Positions 12,036 through 26,090 of a stretch of 64,000 nucleotides of DNA are shown in pieces. The position numbers and the translations under genes are program-made. The DNA comes from Thermocoleostomius sinensis A174 (GTDB taxonomy: Bacteria > Cyanobacteriota > Cyanobacteriia > Elainellales > Elainellaceae), in NCBI RefSeq assembly GCF_026802175.1, contig NZ_CP113797.1:4255026-4319025 (forward strand). The letters are read 5' to 3'. Under the pieces are notes generated by a model, which worked only from the letters and a program-made list of their open reading frames with translations, made no database searches and was not told where the DNA came from. Positions within the stretch are counted from its first letter, which is position 1. Each line of letters starts with the position of its first letter.

Positions 12036-12452
12036 ATGGAACAACCAGCAACTCAGCTAGAAAAATCTTTTCAACCTCGACAACTCGTAAGTCAGGCTAC
12101 TCAATACGAATTCATTCAGCCCGAGACATCAATTGAAGATGTTCCGCTCAATCCTACTCAACCTGAAAATTCAATTCTATCGATCGGACTTTTGGGGATT
12201 GGCTTGATTGGCATGGCGCTACTTCTGAGAATAATTGCGCTTAAGCTGCAAGCAGAACACAAGCAAGTCATTGATACCTTAAAATATACAGACAAAGTAC
12301 CGTGTCGAAACTGCCGATTTTTCTCAAATAATTCCTATCTCAAATGTGCTGTTCATCCATCTGATGTGCTAAAAGAAACAGCAATTGACTGCTCAGATTA
12401 CTGTCCGAAGAATGAACCTCCTACTAAAAAAGATGGACGTTCCAGAAGCTAA
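12036..12452 (+). CDS. Small membrane protein with CRxC...CAxHP...CxD motif
   Basis: 138 residues. A polar N-terminus (1-45), one membrane helix (about 47-66, ILSIGLLGIGLIGMALLL), a charged linker, then a cysteine module: Cys90, Cys93, Cys104, His107, Cys119 and Cys123 in CRNC, LKCAVHP and CSDYC. The pattern suggests a small zinc or other metal site, or disulfides. The same motif recurs in the otherwise different protein at 18228. By the positive-inside rule the basic region after the helix would place the cysteine module in the cytoplasm. No family name recalled. It converges on the TPR gene, 39 bp away. Confidence 0.7.
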   Translation: MEQPATQLEKSFQPRQLVSQATQYEFIQPETSIEDVPLNPTQPENSILSIGLLGIGLIGMALLLRIIALKLQAEHKQVIDTLKYTDKVPCRNCRFFSNNSYLKCAVHPSDVLKETAIDCSDYCPKNEPPTKKDGRSRS

Positions 12453-12491
12453 AGCAGCCAAACTAAACTAGCGAATACATTTCTCGATCGA

Positions 12492-15092
12492 TCACAGTTT
12501 GGGTAGAATTTCTGGCAACAGATCGCCGGGTACTTTAGATAACATTAGGCTTTGCCCTGCTAAGCCTTGTTGATTGTAGGCAGCACGAATAGTTTGGACA
12601 ATGCAATTAAAGGCTGTTTGCCGCAAGTTAGGTTGTTCTGCCCAACCCTGTAGTGCCAACACATGATGAAGAATTGCAGCTTCTAGATGGGTAGTTTGTT
12701 CAGTTGTGCTCAGCCCATTCATGGAGTCTGTGGCGAATTGATAGTGCGCTAAACCTAAGTTATTGTGGGTGGCAAACAGATCAAAGTTGAGCATTATTGC
12801 ATTGGACTGCTGTTGTAAATACGCTGCCGCTTGAAGTGACGCTTCATAGGCTACGATCGCATGTTGCAAATGGTCGAGCCGCTCTTGGGGATGGTCGGTT
12901 TGATTCGCAAGGTGCCAGTACGCGGTGCCCAAATTATTTTGAGTGGCCGCATGGGCTGCTGGAACTGCCTCCCGCGTTCGATACGTGAGTGCCATCTGAT
13001 AGGCAGACACCGCCAGCGACAGCCAATCCTCATGGGGTTCATGCTGAGCCAAGTTCCAGTAAGCAGTCCCTAAGTTATTTTGAATCATGGCGTAATTGAG
13101 CGGCTCTTGATCGGGATTGTAGTACTGCAAGGCTTCCGAGTAGGCCGTAATTGCCAATTTGAGGTTGGCTTTCTGCTCTTTATACTGAGCCAAATTCCAG
13201 TAGGTTGTTCCCAAGTTATTTTGGGTAGAGGCATAGCGCAACGGATCAGACTCAGGGGTGCGATAGCGCAAGGCTTCACGATAAGACTGTACCGATAATT
13301 CCAAATTGTCCACTGGGTTGTCGTGGCGAGCGAGATCGGCATACGCCGCACCCAAGTTGTTTTGCACCATTGGGTAGGTTTGGGCCTGCGTTTGCGGATC
13401 AATTTTGGTGATGGCAAGCTGATACGCTTGAATTCCTTGCTGTAGATAAGCTAATCCCTGACTGGTAGGCAACAAGCGAGAGGTCATCCAGTAGAGATTC
13501 CCCAAGTCGTTGAGAATATCAACCCAAAGCGGCGATACCTCGGGCAATCGTACCAACACCTGTTCGTAGGCTTGGATAGCGATTGAGAGATTTTGGGGTG
13601 TGGCATCTCCTTGTTCGACGCGATCGCGGAAAAGATTACCCACGCTGCGGTAAGCATCAATCAAAACCGTGGAAGAGGCGTTCCGCTGATGCAGTTCTTC
13701 AATGTGTTGCAAAATTCGCTGAATGCGATCGGCATCGGGAAGTCCATCAGGTAGGTGAATGCCGACATGGGTAGGTAGTTCAGAAAGAGGCGGTTGGGCA
13801 GTGGCAGCAGACGAGGTTTGACCGACCGTAGGCGAGGCTCCGTTGGTTGCCATTGGTGGTTCAGAAGCTGGCTGAGCCAGATCCGGATCATCCGTTGTTT
13901 CATAAAGCTGATTCAGATTTTCACCCAGTGGCAACCAAGGATTATCAGCCGTCGCAGGTGGTTCTGCTGAGGAAGGTGATTGTGACTTGGAAGGTGACTC
14001 GATCGGCGTTGCCTGGTCTTGAATATCTTCTTGATGCTGGATAAACTGCTCGACCCAAGCCAACAACGGGTTATCAGGAACATCTCCATTAGTTAACTCT
14101 GCGACTAACTCTGCGGCCAAATCCTCTGGCAACAGCGAATGAGACTGAGTGGCATCTATTGCGGAGGTCTCATCTCCTAAGCCTTCCGCTTGCAGCCAAG
14201 GATTGCTCTCTAGATCATCCAGGGTAAACGTTGCATCCAGCCCATCCTCTGCATCGGCTAACACGCGATCGAGTTGCTCGTCGTGCAGCAGCGTCAACCA
14301 AGGATTTTCTGCCAGTTCCGGGCTATCTTCCTTGGTGGGAGTCGCTGCATCCGTTGGGGGCGTTTCGATCGCGGCGGCGGCGTGGTTTCCTGCATTTTGC
14401 TCATCACCGCGCTCATGAATTACAGGATCACGAACGGCATACTCTAAGGGCGGCACCGTTTCACTGCTTGGGTCTAGACGCGAAGACTGGGCCCCAAATC
14501 GCTCTGGCAGCGTGATAGTGAGTGGAGTAGGATCGCCAATAAACTCAAATACCCCTGTTCGACAGCGCCAAAACTCTGGTACAGATTGCGATACGGTGTG
14601 AAACCAAGGCTGGGTGATCCAAAATAGCAAGCTGAGGTCAAGTAGCGGCAGATGGCGCTCGATCGTCTGTAAATGGGTTAGAAATAGGCGCTGAACCGCT
14701 GGAGACTGTCGCGTCAGATGTTCAATGCCTAAAATTTGAAACGCAGGCATCTCCATCGCCGATCGACCGATGATGGGTGGTGGAGATTGGTTCAGCCATT
14801 GCGCTACCTGAATCAACGGGTTTGGATCTTCCAGGCTCAGTTGCACACTCACCAGTCGAGGATAGTGTTGCACTGCGGACGGTAAGCGAGAGGCGTCAAC
14901 TCCGGCCAACTCTAATGCAGGGGCTTGATTGAGTTCCGTTTGCAGTTGTGTTGCTAGTCGATCGCGCAACACCAAATCATCACATACTGCGATAAAAATT
15001 TGCCGACGCAAATTCAGATCCAGCGCTAGTTTAAGCCGCTGATACGTCTGCTGATTCAACCCCAAAATTTTGCGAAGAGGAACGTTTGCCAC
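12492..15092 (-). CDS. Large TPR protein with disordered NPWL-motif linker
   Basis: 866 residues from a GTG at 15092 (an in-frame TTG at 15158 would add 22 residues that look unlike a protein start). N-terminal globular domain of about 200 residues (ILGLNQQTYQRLKLALDLNL, FIAVCDDLVLRDRLATQL) resembles a degenerate P-loop or STAND-type sensor without a clear Walker A. A disordered, acidic Pro/Ser-rich linker of about 230 residues follows, holding (E/S/D)NPWL three times and NPLLAWV once. The C-terminal half has at least five TPR-like repeats with a roughly 47-residue period, each marked QNNLGTAYWNLAQ. It is likely a cytoplasmic scaffold; partners are unknown. Confidence 0.8.
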   Translation of the reverse strand: MANVPLRKILGLNQQTYQRLKLALDLNLRRQIFIAVCDDLVLRDRLATQLQTELNQAPALELAGVDASRLPSAVQHYPRLVSVQLSLEDPNPLIQVAQWLNQSPPPIIGRSAMEMPAFQILGIEHLTRQSPAVQRLFLTHLQTIERHLPLLDLSLLFWITQPWFHTVSQSVPEFWRCRTGVFEFIGDPTPLTITLPERFGAQSSRLDPSSETVPPLEYAVRDPVIHERGDEQNAGNHAAAAIETPPTDAATPTKEDSPELAENPWLTLLHDEQLDRVLADAEDGLDATFTLDDLESNPWLQAEGLGDETSAIDATQSHSLLPEDLAAELVAELTNGDVPDNPLLAWVEQFIQHQEDIQDQATPIESPSKSQSPSSAEPPATADNPWLPLGENLNQLYETTDDPDLAQPASEPPMATNGASPTVGQTSSAATAQPPLSELPTHVGIHLPDGLPDADRIQRILQHIEELHQRNASSTVLIDAYRSVGNLFRDRVEQGDATPQNLSIAIQAYEQVLVRLPEVSPLWVDILNDLGNLYWMTSRLLPTSQGLAYLQQGIQAYQLAITKIDPQTQAQTYPMVQNNLGAAYADLARHDNPVDNLELSVQSYREALRYRTPESDPLRYASTQNNLGTTYWNLAQYKEQKANLKLAITAYSEALQYYNPDQEPLNYAMIQNNLGTAYWNLAQHEPHEDWLSLAVSAYQMALTYRTREAVPAAHAATQNNLGTAYWHLANQTDHPQERLDHLQHAIVAYEASLQAAAYLQQQSNAIMLNFDLFATHNNLGLAHYQFATDSMNGLSTTEQTTHLEAAILHHVLALQGWAEQPNLRQTAFNCIVQTIRAAYNQQGLAGQSLMLSKVPGDLLPEILPKL

Positions 15093-15229
15093 AGCGAAAA
15101 AACAGCGAGGATGGTAAAGCAAGCCCCGAACTAGACAAAAGCAAAGGTAGCCCAGCAAGGCAGAACACGAACAGTGAATACCCAGTTGCTATGACTCTTT
15201 TTTCAAGGACTTTAGGATTGGGTCAGGAT

Positions 15230-15450
15230 AGATAGAGAGCCAGATAAGAAAAGGGTGAGGGTGTATCCCCGTTGTGCTGGCCTTCGCCCTAATCCCGCTT
15301 CCAAGTCCTGGCGAGAGACTTTGAGCCGGAAGCATTGGCTTTGTTTGAGCCGAGCCATTTTTCTCTGACTCCCCTTCTTCTAGCCATGGGAGAAAGGGCA
15401 GGGGGATGAGGGCTATTACAACCACACAGATACGAAAGTGGAGATGCACC
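15230..15450. repeat. Degenerate GC-rich inverted-repeat element
   Basis: The spacer between the TPR gene and tex contains gccctaatcccgctt at 15286-15300 and, inverted, agggggatgagggc at 15400-15413. Local palindromes include ccccttctt...gagaaaggg. This resembles worn copies of the CCCTCATCCCC/AGAAGGGG palindromic elements that are scattered in many cyanobacterial spacers. No coding potential is credible here. No promoter was identified for tex. Confidence 0.35.
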
Positions 15451-15600
15451 CAAGGGGAAGAGGGTTAAATCCCGGAGTATAGCCGAAGGAGAGCCGAAAA
15501 CTTTGTGCCTGTATCTTTCAATTGAACCGAGTTCGATCGCCTATCCTAGAAGAACTGTTTGAATCATAATTTCAGAACGAGACTGACGATCGAATTGGTT

Positions 15601-17931
15601 ATGAACATTCCTCAACTGCTGGCGAATGAATTGGCGCTGAAGCCGTATCAGGTTGAAAATGCTCTACAACTATTGACAGAAGGAGCCACCGTTCCCTTCA
15701 TTGCCCGCTACCGTAAAGAGCGCACGGGTGAGATGAATGAGGTGCAATTACGAAACTTATTAGACCGCTACACCTATTTGACGGAGTTAGAAGAACGCAA
15801 GGCGGCGATCTTGAAGTCGATCGCAGAACAGGGAAAACTCACCGATGCGTTGCAGCAGCAGATTGAAGCCTGTTTGCAGAAGAACGAATTGGAAGATCTG
15901 TACTTGCCCTATCGCCCCAAGCGTCGTACCCGCGCTACGATTGCTCGCGAGAAGGGCTTGGAACCATTGGCAATCTGGATTAAATCTCTCAATCAACCTA
16001 CTGCTACTGGGGTGCCACTGGAGTTGGAAGCTGCCCAGTATGTTTCTGAAGAGAAGGGCGTAGCGACGATCGAAGCCGCCTTGCAAGGGGCAGCAGATAT
16101 TTTGGCCGAGGAGGTGGCAGAACAGGCAAACCTTCGTGCGTATTTGCGCGAGTATTTGCTGGATACGGGGCTGTTTGTCTCGACCGTGAAACCCGATTAT
16201 CCTGAAGGCACAACCAAGTTTGAGATGTACCGTCAGTATCAAGCCAAGGTCAAGTCGATCGCTCCACACAATCTGCTGGCTCTCTATCGCGGCGAAGCAG
16301 AAGGCATTCTGGACTTTGCCCTGATATTTGATGAAGACACAGTGATAGCGTATCTGGAGTCAGAAATGATTCAATCGAAGCAGCCTCCGGTGCGATCTTT
16401 CTACCGTGACATGCTGAAGGACGCCTTCAATCGTTTGATGAAGAATTCCCTGATCAGTGAAATTCGCGCTGCTAAGAAGCTGGAAGCGGATATTGAATCA
16501 ATTCGCACCTTTGAAGCCAATTTGCGGGAACTGTTGCTGTCGCCTCCAGCGGGCATGAAACCCACACTGGCAATTGACCCAGGGTTTCGCACGGGCTGTA
16601 AGGTCGTAGCACTGGATCAAACGGGTAAGTTTTTGGAATATCAAACGATTTTTCCGCACCAATCTGATGGGGCACGCCAGCAAGCGGCAGAGACGCTGAA
16701 GCGCATGATTGACACCCATCACGTGCAATTGATTGCGATTGGAAACGGTACAGCCAGTCGCGAAACCGATGAATTTGTGGCAACGGTTTTAAAGTCGATC
16801 GATCGATCGCCCATCAAGGTGATTGTCAACGAATCGGGAGCCTCCATTTATTCCGCTAGCAACGTGGCGATCGAGGAGTTCCCCGATCAGGATGTGACGG
16901 TGCGGGGTGCCATTAGTATTGGACGGCGATTACAAGATCCATTGGCAGAGTTAGTAAAAATCGATCCCAAGTCAATCGGTGTAGGCCAATATCAGCATGA
17001 TGTTGATCAAAAGCTACTGAAGAAAAAACTCGATGAAACCATAGAAAGCTGCGTCAATTATGTTGGTGTAGACCTAAACACGGCATCTAAACAGCTTTTG
17101 ACGTTCGTATCAGGAATTAATGCCGCGATCGCCAATAACATCGTCGCTTATCGTAACCAAAACGGTGCCTTTACCAATCGACGCGAACTGCTGAAAGTTC
17201 CCAAACTGGGGCCGAAAGCGTTTGAACAAGCCGCCGGTTTTTTGCGCATTCGCGATGGTAGTAATCCCCTGGATAACACGGCTGTGCACCCTGAAAGCTA
17301 TCAAGTTGTGGAGGCGATCGCCAAGGATTTGCAGGTGTCGCTCAGCCAAGTCACACAAATATCCGAGCGGCTGAAGCGAACCGATCTAAAAAAATACGTC
17401 ACTGACACCATCGGGGAACCTACCCTACGCGACATTTTGGCAGAACTGGAAAAACCGGGCCGTGATCCGCGTGCAGAGTTCAAATATGCCACCTTTCAAG
17501 AAGGCGTTAAGGAAATTTGCGATCTGAAACCGGGAATGCAGCTAGAAGGCGTGGTAACAAATGTGGCCAATTTTGGTGCGTTTGTTGATATTGGGGTGCA
17601 TCAAGACGGGCTGGTGCATGTCTCGCAACTGGCCGATCGGTTTGTCAGCGATCCTAAACAAATCATCAAAGTGGGACAAGTGGTGAAGGTGCGTGTGTTG
17701 GAGGTGAATGAAGCTCTGAAGCGTATCAGCTTATCGATGCGATCGTCCGATGCAGAACCACGCCATACCAGCAGTCAAGGCAACAAGGCGGAACAAAAGG
17801 TCAATCCACCAAAATCTCAGAAAGCAGAGAAAGGACAACCAAAGCCTCAACCAAAACCCCACAGCGAGCGATCGGCATCGCCTTCTGCAACATTGGAAGA
17901 CCTGCGATCGAAATTTGGACGAAAAGCATAG
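15601..17931 (+). CDS. tex: Tex-family RNA-binding transcription accessory protein
   Basis: 776 residues from ATG 15601 (a TTG 14 codons upstream is less likely). Tex proteins bind nucleic acids and affect transcription and RNA stability. Domains in order: the helical N-terminus with TVPFIARYRKERTGEMNE; a YqgF/RNase-H-like domain with LAIDPGFRTGCKVVALD; helix-hairpin-helix segments (VSGINAAIANNIVAYRNQNG); and an S1 domain (LEGVVTNVANFGAFVDIGV, then DGLVHVSQL). The end is a 60-residue Lys/Pro/Gln-rich tail closing with LEDLRSKFGRK. The length and order match the family. Confidence 0.95.
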   Translation: MNIPQLLANELALKPYQVENALQLLTEGATVPFIARYRKERTGEMNEVQLRNLLDRYTYLTELEERKAAILKSIAEQGKLTDALQQQIEACLQKNELEDLYLPYRPKRRTRATIAREKGLEPLAIWIKSLNQPTATGVPLELEAAQYVSEEKGVATIEAALQGAADILAEEVAEQANLRAYLREYLLDTGLFVSTVKPDYPEGTTKFEMYRQYQAKVKSIAPHNLLALYRGEAEGILDFALIFDEDTVIAYLESEMIQSKQPPVRSFYRDMLKDAFNRLMKNSLISEIRAAKKLEADIESIRTFEANLRELLLSPPAGMKPTLAIDPGFRTGCKVVALDQTGKFLEYQTIFPHQSDGARQQAAETLKRMIDTHHVQLIAIGNGTASRETDEFVATVLKSIDRSPIKVIVNESGASIYSASNVAIEEFPDQDVTVRGAISIGRRLQDPLAELVKIDPKSIGVGQYQHDVDQKLLKKKLDETIESCVNYVGVDLNTASKQLLTFVSGINAAIANNIVAYRNQNGAFTNRRELLKVPKLGPKAFEQAAGFLRIRDGSNPLDNTAVHPESYQVVEAIAKDLQVSLSQVTQISERLKRTDLKKYVTDTIGEPTLRDILAELEKPGRDPRAEFKYATFQEGVKEICDLKPGMQLEGVVTNVANFGAFVDIGVHQDGLVHVSQLADRFVSDPKQIIKVGQVVKVRVLEVNEALKRISLSMRSSDAEPRHTSSQGNKAEQKVNPPKSQKAEKGQPKPQPKPHSERSASPSATLEDLRSKFGRKA

Positions 17932-18227
17932 ACTGGCAAAAGACAGAACACAGTGCTTAGAGCACACCAACACTGCTTCGAGTTTGGTGACCGACTTCGA
18001 ATCAACCTGCGATGATGCATGACGATCGCGGTAGGACGATCGCGTTCTGCTATGACTTGGATCTTTGACACAAACCCAATGACATACCCTAGAATAGGCT
18101 AGGAGTTCAATCGTGCTTTCCCCGGATTTGCTACCGCTAGGATGAACATATGTAATGTGACAATTAGAATGTGCCTGATCGGGTAATGGGTGGCGATCGG
18201 CAATCATAAGTTCCTCTACGAAGACGG

Positions 18228-18695
18228 ATGACTTTGATGGCAACCATGATTGGTAAAGTGGCGCTGAGCGGAATGTGTGCAGGCATTGCTCTTTACGTGG
18301 CAGTGCGGTCAGACAATCAAGCAATTCAAGCAACGGCTGCTCTCACGAGTTCCTGTCTTCTGGGCTTCTCAGTGACAACGCTGGCTTTAGAGCGCCATCG
18401 AGAGCGTAAGACGCGGGAAGCCAACACAGATGTGTATCTAGAATTGCTGCGGCAGATGAACACGCAGCCACATCGCCCGACCTTGCCCCAACAGCCAAGC
18501 GTTTGCCGAGGCTGCTGTCACTATCACGGCAAGATGTATGGGGGAAACTTATTGGTTTGTGCCATGCACCCCTATGGAGCCGATGGGGATCAGTGCCATG
18601 ATTGGGAAGGGCATAATCATCCCGGTAGATCAGATCACCCAGATCAGCCCTTGATTTCTGATATGTATCCTGATCAGGATTCTCTAATCGAGTAG
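18228..18695 (+). CDS. Membrane protein with CRxC...CAxHP...CxD motif, second copy
   Basis: 155 residues. Two hydrophobic segments (about 8-26 and 33-53), a basic linker (LERHRERKTREAN) and a cysteine/histidine module: Cys93, Cys96, Cys97, His98, His100, Cys111, His114, Cys123. The order CRGC, LVCAMHP, C-x-DW is the same as in the gene at 12036, though the two proteins share little else. A metal site is likely; its role is unknown. The C-terminus is rich in Asp, His and Pro. Starts at ATG 18228, 18237 or 18246 are all possible. Confidence 0.7.
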   Translation: MTLMATMIGKVALSGMCAGIALYVAVRSDNQAIQATAALTSSCLLGFSVTTLALERHRERKTREANTDVYLELLRQMNTQPHRPTLPQQPSVCRGCCHYHGKMYGGNLLVCAMHPYGADGDQCHDWEGHNHPGRSDHPDQPLISDMYPDQDSLIE

Positions 18696-24875: not shown

Positions 24876-26090
24876 TTAAAAGGTTGACTGATTGAAAAGT
24901 GTATTTGACGGCATTGCTTTGCGCAATGGTGATATCTTTTGAGATTGTTGTAGTACCGAATCAAGATGTTGATCAATGACTTGATTGGTGAATTGTAAGT
25001 TAAAGCGCTGACTAGCTTGTCGTTTACCTTCGTGGGCGATCGCAGCAGTTTGACATGGGTGGTGATAACAGTACAGAATTTTAGCCGCTAGCTGATCGGC
25101 ATCATTGGGAGTACACATCCATCCAGTTTTACCAGACTCAATCAGTTCAGTGGCCCCACCTGCTCTAGTCGCAATGACAGGTCGATCGCAAAGCATCCCT
25201 TCTACAATCACTCGTCCAAACGGTTCTGGGGCGATAGATGTATGAGCAATTAAGTCACAGACTGCCATTAGCTGCGGCACGTCCGATCGAAATCCCAGAA
25301 AATGAACACGATTTTCCAAGCCTAGATCAATTACCTGTTGCTGTAGTTGCTGTACATACTCCTGTTCCCCGAATAACGCATCTCCAACTAGCAGTGTCAC
25401 AATCTGTTCCGGACATTTTGCCAAAGCTTTGAGTAACACATGTTGTCCCTTCCAAGGCGACAAGCGACTGAAATGTCCGACGATAAATTGATCGTCTTTA
25501 AGTCCAAGTTGATGTTTAAGTTGGTTTGTAGAGTCAGCATCAATTTGATACTGCTCCGGGATAAAGCCGTTATACACAACTTGAGTAATATTCGGTTGTC
25601 CACCTGCTGCTATAAAAGCCGATCGAGTTGCTTCAGAGTTGGCTAACACTAACGAGGCACAGTAGTTAGCAATCTTGATTGCAATGAAACGGTTCGCAGT
25701 GCTGAAATGTTCGGCAGAGAGAATATCACGCAAATGGTAGACCAGCGGACGACACGCCAACCTGCTGGCAAGTCCACCAATCACTAATGCCTTTTGGGTA
25801 TTAGCATAGATCAAATCATAGCTACGAGCTAGTTTGGCAACTTGTAAAATACATGGCAACAAGAAATAAGTTTGACTGAGACTATGTATCCACCCGCTGC
25901 TTCGCTTGATCTGAATAGTGTTATGCACAAGAACAGTATTAGGAATAGATCGTTTCTCTAGATGTGCTCGAAATGGACCATCAGCAAACAACCCAACTAG
26001 GCATCGATCGCGGTGCGATTCAGCAACATCTGCTAACGATAATTCTGCGCCGCCAAGATGACCACTCTGATCAAGAAACAAGATATTCAT
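24876..26090 (-). CDS. GT4-type glycosyltransferase (EPS cluster, last gene)
   Basis: 404 residues from ATG 26090, a start consistent with NILFLDQSGHLGGAELSLAD (the nucleotide-sugar loop with GGAE). The C-terminal Rossmann half holds GHFSRLSPWKGQ and the E-x7-E donor-binding motif in EPFGRVIVEGMLCDRP. It transfers a sugar from an activated donor in the cytoplasm to the growing lipid-linked oligosaccharide. Its start overlaps the previous gene's stop as ATGA (26087-26090), so translation is coupled. It is the last gene of the leftward cluster. Confidence 0.9.
   Translation of the reverse strand: MNILFLDQSGHLGGAELSLADVAESHRDRCLVGLFADGPFRAHLEKRSIPNTVLVHNTIQIKRSSGWIHSLSQTYFLLPCILQVAKLARSYDLIYANTQKALVIGGLASRLACRPLVYHLRDILSAEHFSTANRFIAIKIANYCASLVLANSEATRSAFIAAGGQPNITQVVYNGFIPEQYQIDADSTNQLKHQLGLKDDQFIVGHFSRLSPWKGQHVLLKALAKCPEQIVTLLVGDALFGEQEYVQQLQQQVIDLGLENRVHFLGFRSDVPQLMAVCDLIAHTSIAPEPFGRVIVEGMLCDRPVIATRAGGATELIESGKTGWMCTPNDADQLAAKILYCYHHPCQTAAIAHEGKRQASQRFNLQFTNQVIDQHLDSVLQQSQKISPLRKAMPSNTLFNQSTF

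Follow-up and report, generated by a model that had tools for sequence, protein, structure and literature searches.

What is the cysteine-rich module in which two otherwise dissimilar membrane proteins of Thermocoleostomius sinensis A174 end, and did both acquire it from a common source? The two genes lie in a 64,000-nt window of contig NZ_CP113797.1 (assembly GCF_026802175.1), the whole stretch of DNA analyzed here; coordinates are positions within this window, and module loci elsewhere carry labels such as L002. Sequence comparison indicates that the module, ~35 residues long, is homologous in the two proteins, with four invariant cysteines carried on N-terminal parts that change from protein to protein. 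From its conservation, its neighbors in profile space, and the charge around its membrane anchors, we infer metal, fold, membrane side, and function. The candidate we put forward, at a little under an even chance, is a minimal [4Fe-4S] module resembling the high-potential iron–sulfur proteins (HiPIPs) and placed at the cytoplasmic face of the membrane.

One module on two membrane proteins

The first gene (12036..12452) is an open reading frame (ORF) with paralogues in the same genome and further relatives; it encodes a 138-residue protein of group A. Behind a long polar N-terminus, a hydrophobic segment (residues 47–69; 12174..12242) lies inside a modelled helix (residues 46–83), whose predicted local distance difference test (pLDDT) score is about 95 at residues 51–70. 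The module follows at residues 90–122 (12303..12401), with Cys90, Cys93, Cys104, and Cys119 and the invariant Pro108. The second gene (18228..18695) is an ORF with loci of the same two-helix type elsewhere (L261, L262, L272, L281, and L288) and encodes a 155-residue protein of group B. In its structure model, a helical hairpin (helices 2–27 and 31–79) contributes a membrane part of about residues 2–54 (18231..18389), and the module occupies residues 93–126 (18504..18605), with Cys93, Cys96, Cys111, and Cys123. All of these features are on the forward strand. The original prediction, made from the letters of the window, had described one C-terminal module attached to unlike membrane parts, and this description holds: CRNC-x10-CAVHP-x10-CSDY in the 12036 protein and CRGC-x14-CAMHP-x7-CHDW in the 18228 protein are exact in the ORFs, and the former protein has one predicted helix, the latter two.

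Coincidence, which had been allowed for, is not borne out by three observations. First, pairwise BLASTP of the two proteins aligns the module, with a few residues beyond it, at E 4e-4. Second, the genome (5,809,202 bases in one contig) holds eight copies of the module, and a search with the combined profile of eight rows yields the same number of matches. Five copies belong to group A, in which a single helix precedes CxxC-x10-C-x14-C (E 1.3e-7 or better), and three to group B, which has a longer first loop and typically reads YHG...LVCAMHPYG (E 3.5e-7 or better). Third, profiles from clean sets of group A (93 rows) and group B (17 rows) align with a probability of 87.5 and a score of 28.8, a value reached by none of 200 column permutations in which the cysteine columns were held fixed. 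On these observations, the module in the two proteins is the product of common descent; more than cysteine spacing or chance is shared.

Four invariant cysteines and a variable histidine

Profile searches at E ≤ 1e-3 yielded 110 distinct modules (112 were collected and two false rows removed), with the consensus C-x2-C-x(10-19)-C-x2-[HNRQK]-P-x(5-10)-C-x-[DE]-aromatic over ~35 residues. Four cysteines and one proline are invariant in 110/110 modules, a set that is partly redundant and from which copies without a cysteine may have escaped the search. The residue three positions after the third cysteine is H (64 modules), N (16), R (13), Q (12), or K (5); histidine occupies it in all 17 group B modules and in 47 of the 93 from group A. 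Two positions after the last cysteine, D is found 101 times and E nine times, followed by Y, F, or W in 107/110. Loops of 10 and 14 residues are common to 93/93 group A modules, and none of the 110 modules has a second CxxC knuckle in its four-cysteine core.

The earlier view that four cysteines and one histidine are conserved is therefore right for the cysteines and wrong for the histidine, which is replaced by N, R, Q, or K in 46/110 modules and was for that reason rejected as a metal ligand. Since the cysteines are invariant while the histidine varies, the alignment suggests a Cys4 site with the histidine at most in the second shell. Several group A proteins (L020, L021, L055, L092, and L119) have extra cysteines in tails that follow the module, such as CSKSCSK, CCSSRCK, CNACQK, and CPCKK.

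Cysteines in such an arrangement need not bind metal. They could form switchable disulfides in a thiol–disulfide module, and a CxxC near further cysteines does fit redox-active thiols. The invariance of all four cysteines argues against this explanation, to which we give only a slim chance and which is taken up again below.

DUF6464 is the closest named relative

Neither window protein is matched by a Pfam or NCBIfam model over the cut-off, and scans of PHROGs and NCBIfam gave weak matches only. When 64 modules alone were compared with 24,736 Pfam families, 14 families responded, all weakly: DUF6464 (13 modules, best E 0.0023), zf-RING_12 (9), HIPIP (8), Neurexophilin (4), and ten more. The statement that the module has no known name thus survives as far as models over cut-off are concerned and gives way in one respect, as DUF6464 (PF20065) is detectable as a distant relative. 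Its gathering score of 25 bits is not reached by the 12036 protein (14.1 bits), and the 18228 protein has no listed match. Profile comparison of the module with 30 DUF6464 modules gives a probability of 95.1 and a score of 34.4, whereas cysteine-fixed permutations reach at most 23.8 (0/200 as high); for the clean sets, 0/200 permutations were as high for group A and 8/200 for group B.

DUF6464 shares with the module a C-x10-C-A-V-[NH]-P core, conserved aromatic and leucine positions, a total of four cysteines, and a cyanobacterial host range. The profile alignment equates cysteines 2, 3, and 4 of the module with cysteines 1, 2, and 4 of DUF6464. Unlike the module, DUF6464 is without the first cysteine and has a third cysteine of its own in a PCxxC near the end, so that one ligand appears to have been relocated: modules of the present family have CxxC in front and one cysteine behind, whereas PCxxC stands behind CAVNPxG in 30/30 DUF6464 modules, a set drawn from 31 loci (L014, L015, and L290–L318) with a pattern that presupposed four cysteines and PCxxC. 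The rest of DUF6464 is absent from the window proteins. A circular permutation, which the order of the motifs had brought to mind, was rejected, as the profile alignment preserves the order and only one cysteine has moved. DUF6464 is, on this alignment, the closest named relative, with a homologous cysteine core in which one cysteine has changed place. That it retains four cysteines despite moving one is easier to accommodate with a four-ligand site than with switchable disulfides.

Over its own cut-off, DUF6464 is found in 80/96 sampled genomes of the class. Some PF20065 matches span only profile positions of about 74–104, that is, the cysteine part on other N-termini, so the DUF6464 module may also be mobile. 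A literature search of limited scope returned no paper with the term DUF6464 and none describing the module; the lists of hypothetical signature proteins in PMC2823733 could not be tied to it.

Resemblance to HiPIPs and the choice of metal

After DUF6464, the HiPIPs are the best match among the families tested. The combined profile scores 23.5 against an alignment in which 1cku is joined by seven HiPIPs encoded in Pseudomonadota plasmid records, and 0/200 permutations were as high (maximum 20.6); with the clean sets, the count was 1/200 for group A and 5/200 for group B. In an extended alignment (-mact 0), all four cysteines fall in register. Single proteins were ranked among 500 cysteine-fixed shuffles, a smaller rank meaning fewer shuffles as high. 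With the combined profile, which here holds the 110 rows of groups A and B, the eight HiPIPs rank 2, 1, 0, 1, 0, 2, 47, and 0 of 500 at 3.3 to 14.0 bits; seven of them lie between 8.6 and 14.0 bits and the eighth at 3.3, compared with −9.6 to 4.7 bits for seven control proteins. Among these controls, rubredoxin ranks 128, YacG 271, the DksA part 374, and clostridial ferredoxin 392. In addition to the eight modules mentioned above, 9/61 whole proteins gave weak HIPIP matches.

The module and the HiPIPs agree in the order and register of the four cysteines, an aromatic residue after CxxC, a proline or small residue four positions after the third cysteine, and an aromatic residue three positions after the last. 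They differ in length (about 35 residues versus 66–85), and the module is without the N-terminal half of HiPIPs and without their GWC. Classical HiPIPs are exported, soluble proteins, whereas the module is membrane-tethered and presumably on the cytoplasmic side.

Small proteins of this type have been described. Accessory subunits of glycyl radical enzymes adopt a HiPIP-like fold with a [4Fe-4S] cluster in as few as 60 residues, and two such subunits can be without sequence similarity to each other (PMC12358834 and PMC12590467). The cysteines of MASSβ (Cys32, 35, 51, and 86) follow C-x2-C-x(n)-C-x(n)-C with no second CxxC (PMC12358834), which is also the order in the module. MASSγ/MasC, BSSγ/TutF, and BSSβ resemble the module in their small size (MasC and TutF have 60 residues), and MasC carries CKECRNYF at residues 3–10 and CSDY at residues 47–50, the latter motif being present in the 12036 protein. 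Unlike the module, MasC, TutF, and BSSβ are soluble enzyme subunits of anaerobes with a much longer spacing between the third and fourth cysteines. MasC is the only cysteine-rich match of the group B profile in the PDB, at an E value of 0.86 that is not significant.

Several results weigh against the HiPIP-like reading. The default profile alignment covers 14 columns only. For MasC, the rank among 500 shuffles is 4 when the combined profile is used, 79 when that of group A is used, and 0 with a group B profile that contained two group A rows. The controls are not all flat: L31, mitoNEET, and L36 rank 10, 11, and 16 with the combined profile, and L31 ranks 3 with that of group A. Among Pfam families, zf-RING_12 matches no fewer modules (9/64) than HIPIP does, and no scanned family member attains the 22-bit cut-off of HIPIP (PF01355), the score being 12.7 bits in the scan of the window proteins. 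PF01355 exceeds its cut-off in 0/146 genomes of the phylum, where copies of the module itself appear at chance-level E values of 0.17, 0.44, and 0.63; among 14 control genomes, one exceeds the cut-off. Searches of solved structures produced chance-level matches or none: Foldseek with the 18228 model returned 0 matches, and profiles A3, A7, and A9 found no PDB chain at E ≤ 10. The structure models are of little help, as the module has a pLDDT of about 46–54 in the 12036 protein and 54–71 in the 18228 protein; the low-confidence model of the latter places strands at residues 99–104 and 107–111, between Cys96 and Cys111. Taken over the sequences compared, the lead of HiPIPs over L31 and mitoNEET is modest.

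The four cysteines might instead hold one structural zinc ion and shape a small adaptor, through which partners would be brought to the membrane or to phage and soluble proteins. Zinc proteins often have Cys4 sites of this size, and zinc domains occur among the 14 weakly matching families: zf-RING_12 with its nine modules, PHDvar_NSD with two, and IRF-2BP1_2, Zn_ribbon_FGT1_1, zf-Tbcl_FmdE, and zf-C2H2_ZN142 with one each. The zinc-binding L31 and L36 are also those that rank 10 and 16. Yet seven of the eight HiPIPs outscore every zinc control with the combined profile (8.6 to 14.0 versus at most 4.7 bits, the eighth HiPIP having 3.3), YacG and the DksA part stand far down at ranks 271 and 374, and a second CxxC knuckle is missing from the core. 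We regard zinc as rather unlikely, and as the most serious of the alternatives.

A mononuclear, rubredoxin-like iron or a [2Fe-2S] cluster on the same cysteines seems improbable. MASSδ provides a precedent, as its CX2CXnCXnC motif had led to the prediction of a [4Fe-4S] cluster and a single Fe in a rubredoxin-like fold was found, so the motif alone misled (PMC12358834); mitoNEET, at rank 11, points the same way. Rubredoxin itself, however, ranks 128 and requires two CxxC, and MASSδ likewise has two (Cys3, 6, 32, and 35; same source).

In the [4Fe-4S] reading that we favor, the ~35 residues would fold as a minimal HiPIP-like unit whose four cysteines hold one cluster. Interchangeable N-terminal parts would place this unit in soluble acidic proteins or, for group A and the 18228 protein, at the cytoplasmic membrane face. 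Most likely, it would transfer single electrons or, by gaining and losing the cluster, report on redox state or the supply of iron.

Membrane anchors and gene neighbors

The N-terminal parts are of at least five kinds. Two have a single helix, preceded either by a short N-terminus or, as in the 12036 protein and many more, by a polar one of about 45 residues. A third is the two-helix hairpin of the 18228 protein, found at five further loci among 31. Others are a basic N-terminus (L003) and an acidic one, probably soluble, for which M-E-x-W is a frequent start. The original proposal of a compact metal-binding or redox module on different anchors gains support from this variety combined with four invariant cysteines, as far as sequence can tell.

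A simple scan found a hydrophobic segment in 147/166 proteins, a partly redundant set in which both groups are mixed. K and R are richer on the module side of 123 of these 147 segments, equal for 19, and richer on the opposite side for 5. By the positive-inside rule, this bias indicates that the module probably faces the cytoplasm. A reducing cytoplasm, if the charge bias is read correctly, also speaks against switchable disulfides.

Two genes recur upstream of group A genes in a set of 82 stretches, made up of 80 loci plus two stretches of the window: one that we take to be chlorophyll synthase, in 28 stretches, and one that we take to be an ArsA-type ATPase, in 27. As neither window gene has these neighbors, both were rejected as conserved group A partners, and the association may reflect shared gene order only. 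At L002, a soluble group B gene directly follows the gene of a small protein (MAGFGDLVQKAFYLGVG...), the two genes lying at 872–1240 and 1249–1701. The small protein has no Pfam match over cut-off, and its relatives adjoin group B genes in 16/31 loci, so the pair may form an operon.

Within the window, the 12036 gene is adjoined by the gene of an 888-residue protein (12492–15158, reverse strand) whose only matches, weak ones to tetratricopeptide families, fall in the C-terminal part. Farther along, positions 24876–49099 hold a polysaccharide gene cluster (10 ORFs scanned) with several glycosyltransferases, a sulfotransferase, an ABC transporter, a CbiA/MinD-type ATPase protein, and a polysaccharide export protein.

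Distribution, plasmids, and phages

In a sample of 292 genomes of the phylum, 96 match the combined profile at E ≤ 0.01, all of them from the class to which T. sinensis belongs; no match was found in 14 genomes listed for family f19, which by their size (1.6–3.0 Mb) may be picocyanobacteria, or in 176 further genomes of the sample. At E ≤ 0.001, an 11-row group B profile detects the module in 145 of 194 genomes sampled from the class, the weakest matches, near 1e-4 to 1e-3, being less sure. A scan of one genome per species (84,980 species) confirmed 339/348 stretches, and the titles of the best 80 all name genera that we take to be cyanobacterial.

Plasmid copies at E ≤ 1 were found in 27 records with the group B query and in 17 with that of group A, the records being counted under cyanobacterial genera. 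Group B modules are also encoded on six viral contigs; 35 candidate stretches yielded no group A module on a viral contig, and 50,697 phage records gave no match to the 18228 module at E ≤ 1. The module lies at or near the protein C-terminus in L057:4488-5165, L058:4833-5117, and L060:4293-5135. On the four contigs scanned for neighbors, we found a terminase gene in L057, tape measure and endolysin genes in L058, a portal gene in L060, and only a transposase gene in L059; in L058, a single gene step leads from the tape measure gene to that of the module. The 226-residue protein of L057 also occurs in a cyanobacterial genome (L264), perhaps as a provirus. The tail tip protein gpL of phage λ ends in a [4Fe-4S] domain with Cys173, 182, 205, and 212 (PMC10721106); because its cysteine spacing differs, it is a parallel and not a homolog.

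Implications for cyanobacteria

The module is widespread (145/194 genomes of the class, with eight copies in this genome) yet named by none of the Pfam or NCBIfam models scanned. A broader picture, which we offer as speculative, is that most cyanobacteria possess an unrecognized superfamily of minimal HiPIP-like [4Fe-4S] modules on interchangeable anchors at the cytoplasmic face, in which DUF6464 would be a sister with one of its cluster ligands moved to the other end, and which phages would use among their structural genes. If the [4Fe-4S] assignment is true, oxygenic phototrophs would have a new set of membrane-tethered proteins for redox reactions or iron sensing, and DUF6464, itself unexplained, would be linked to an experimentally testable idea.

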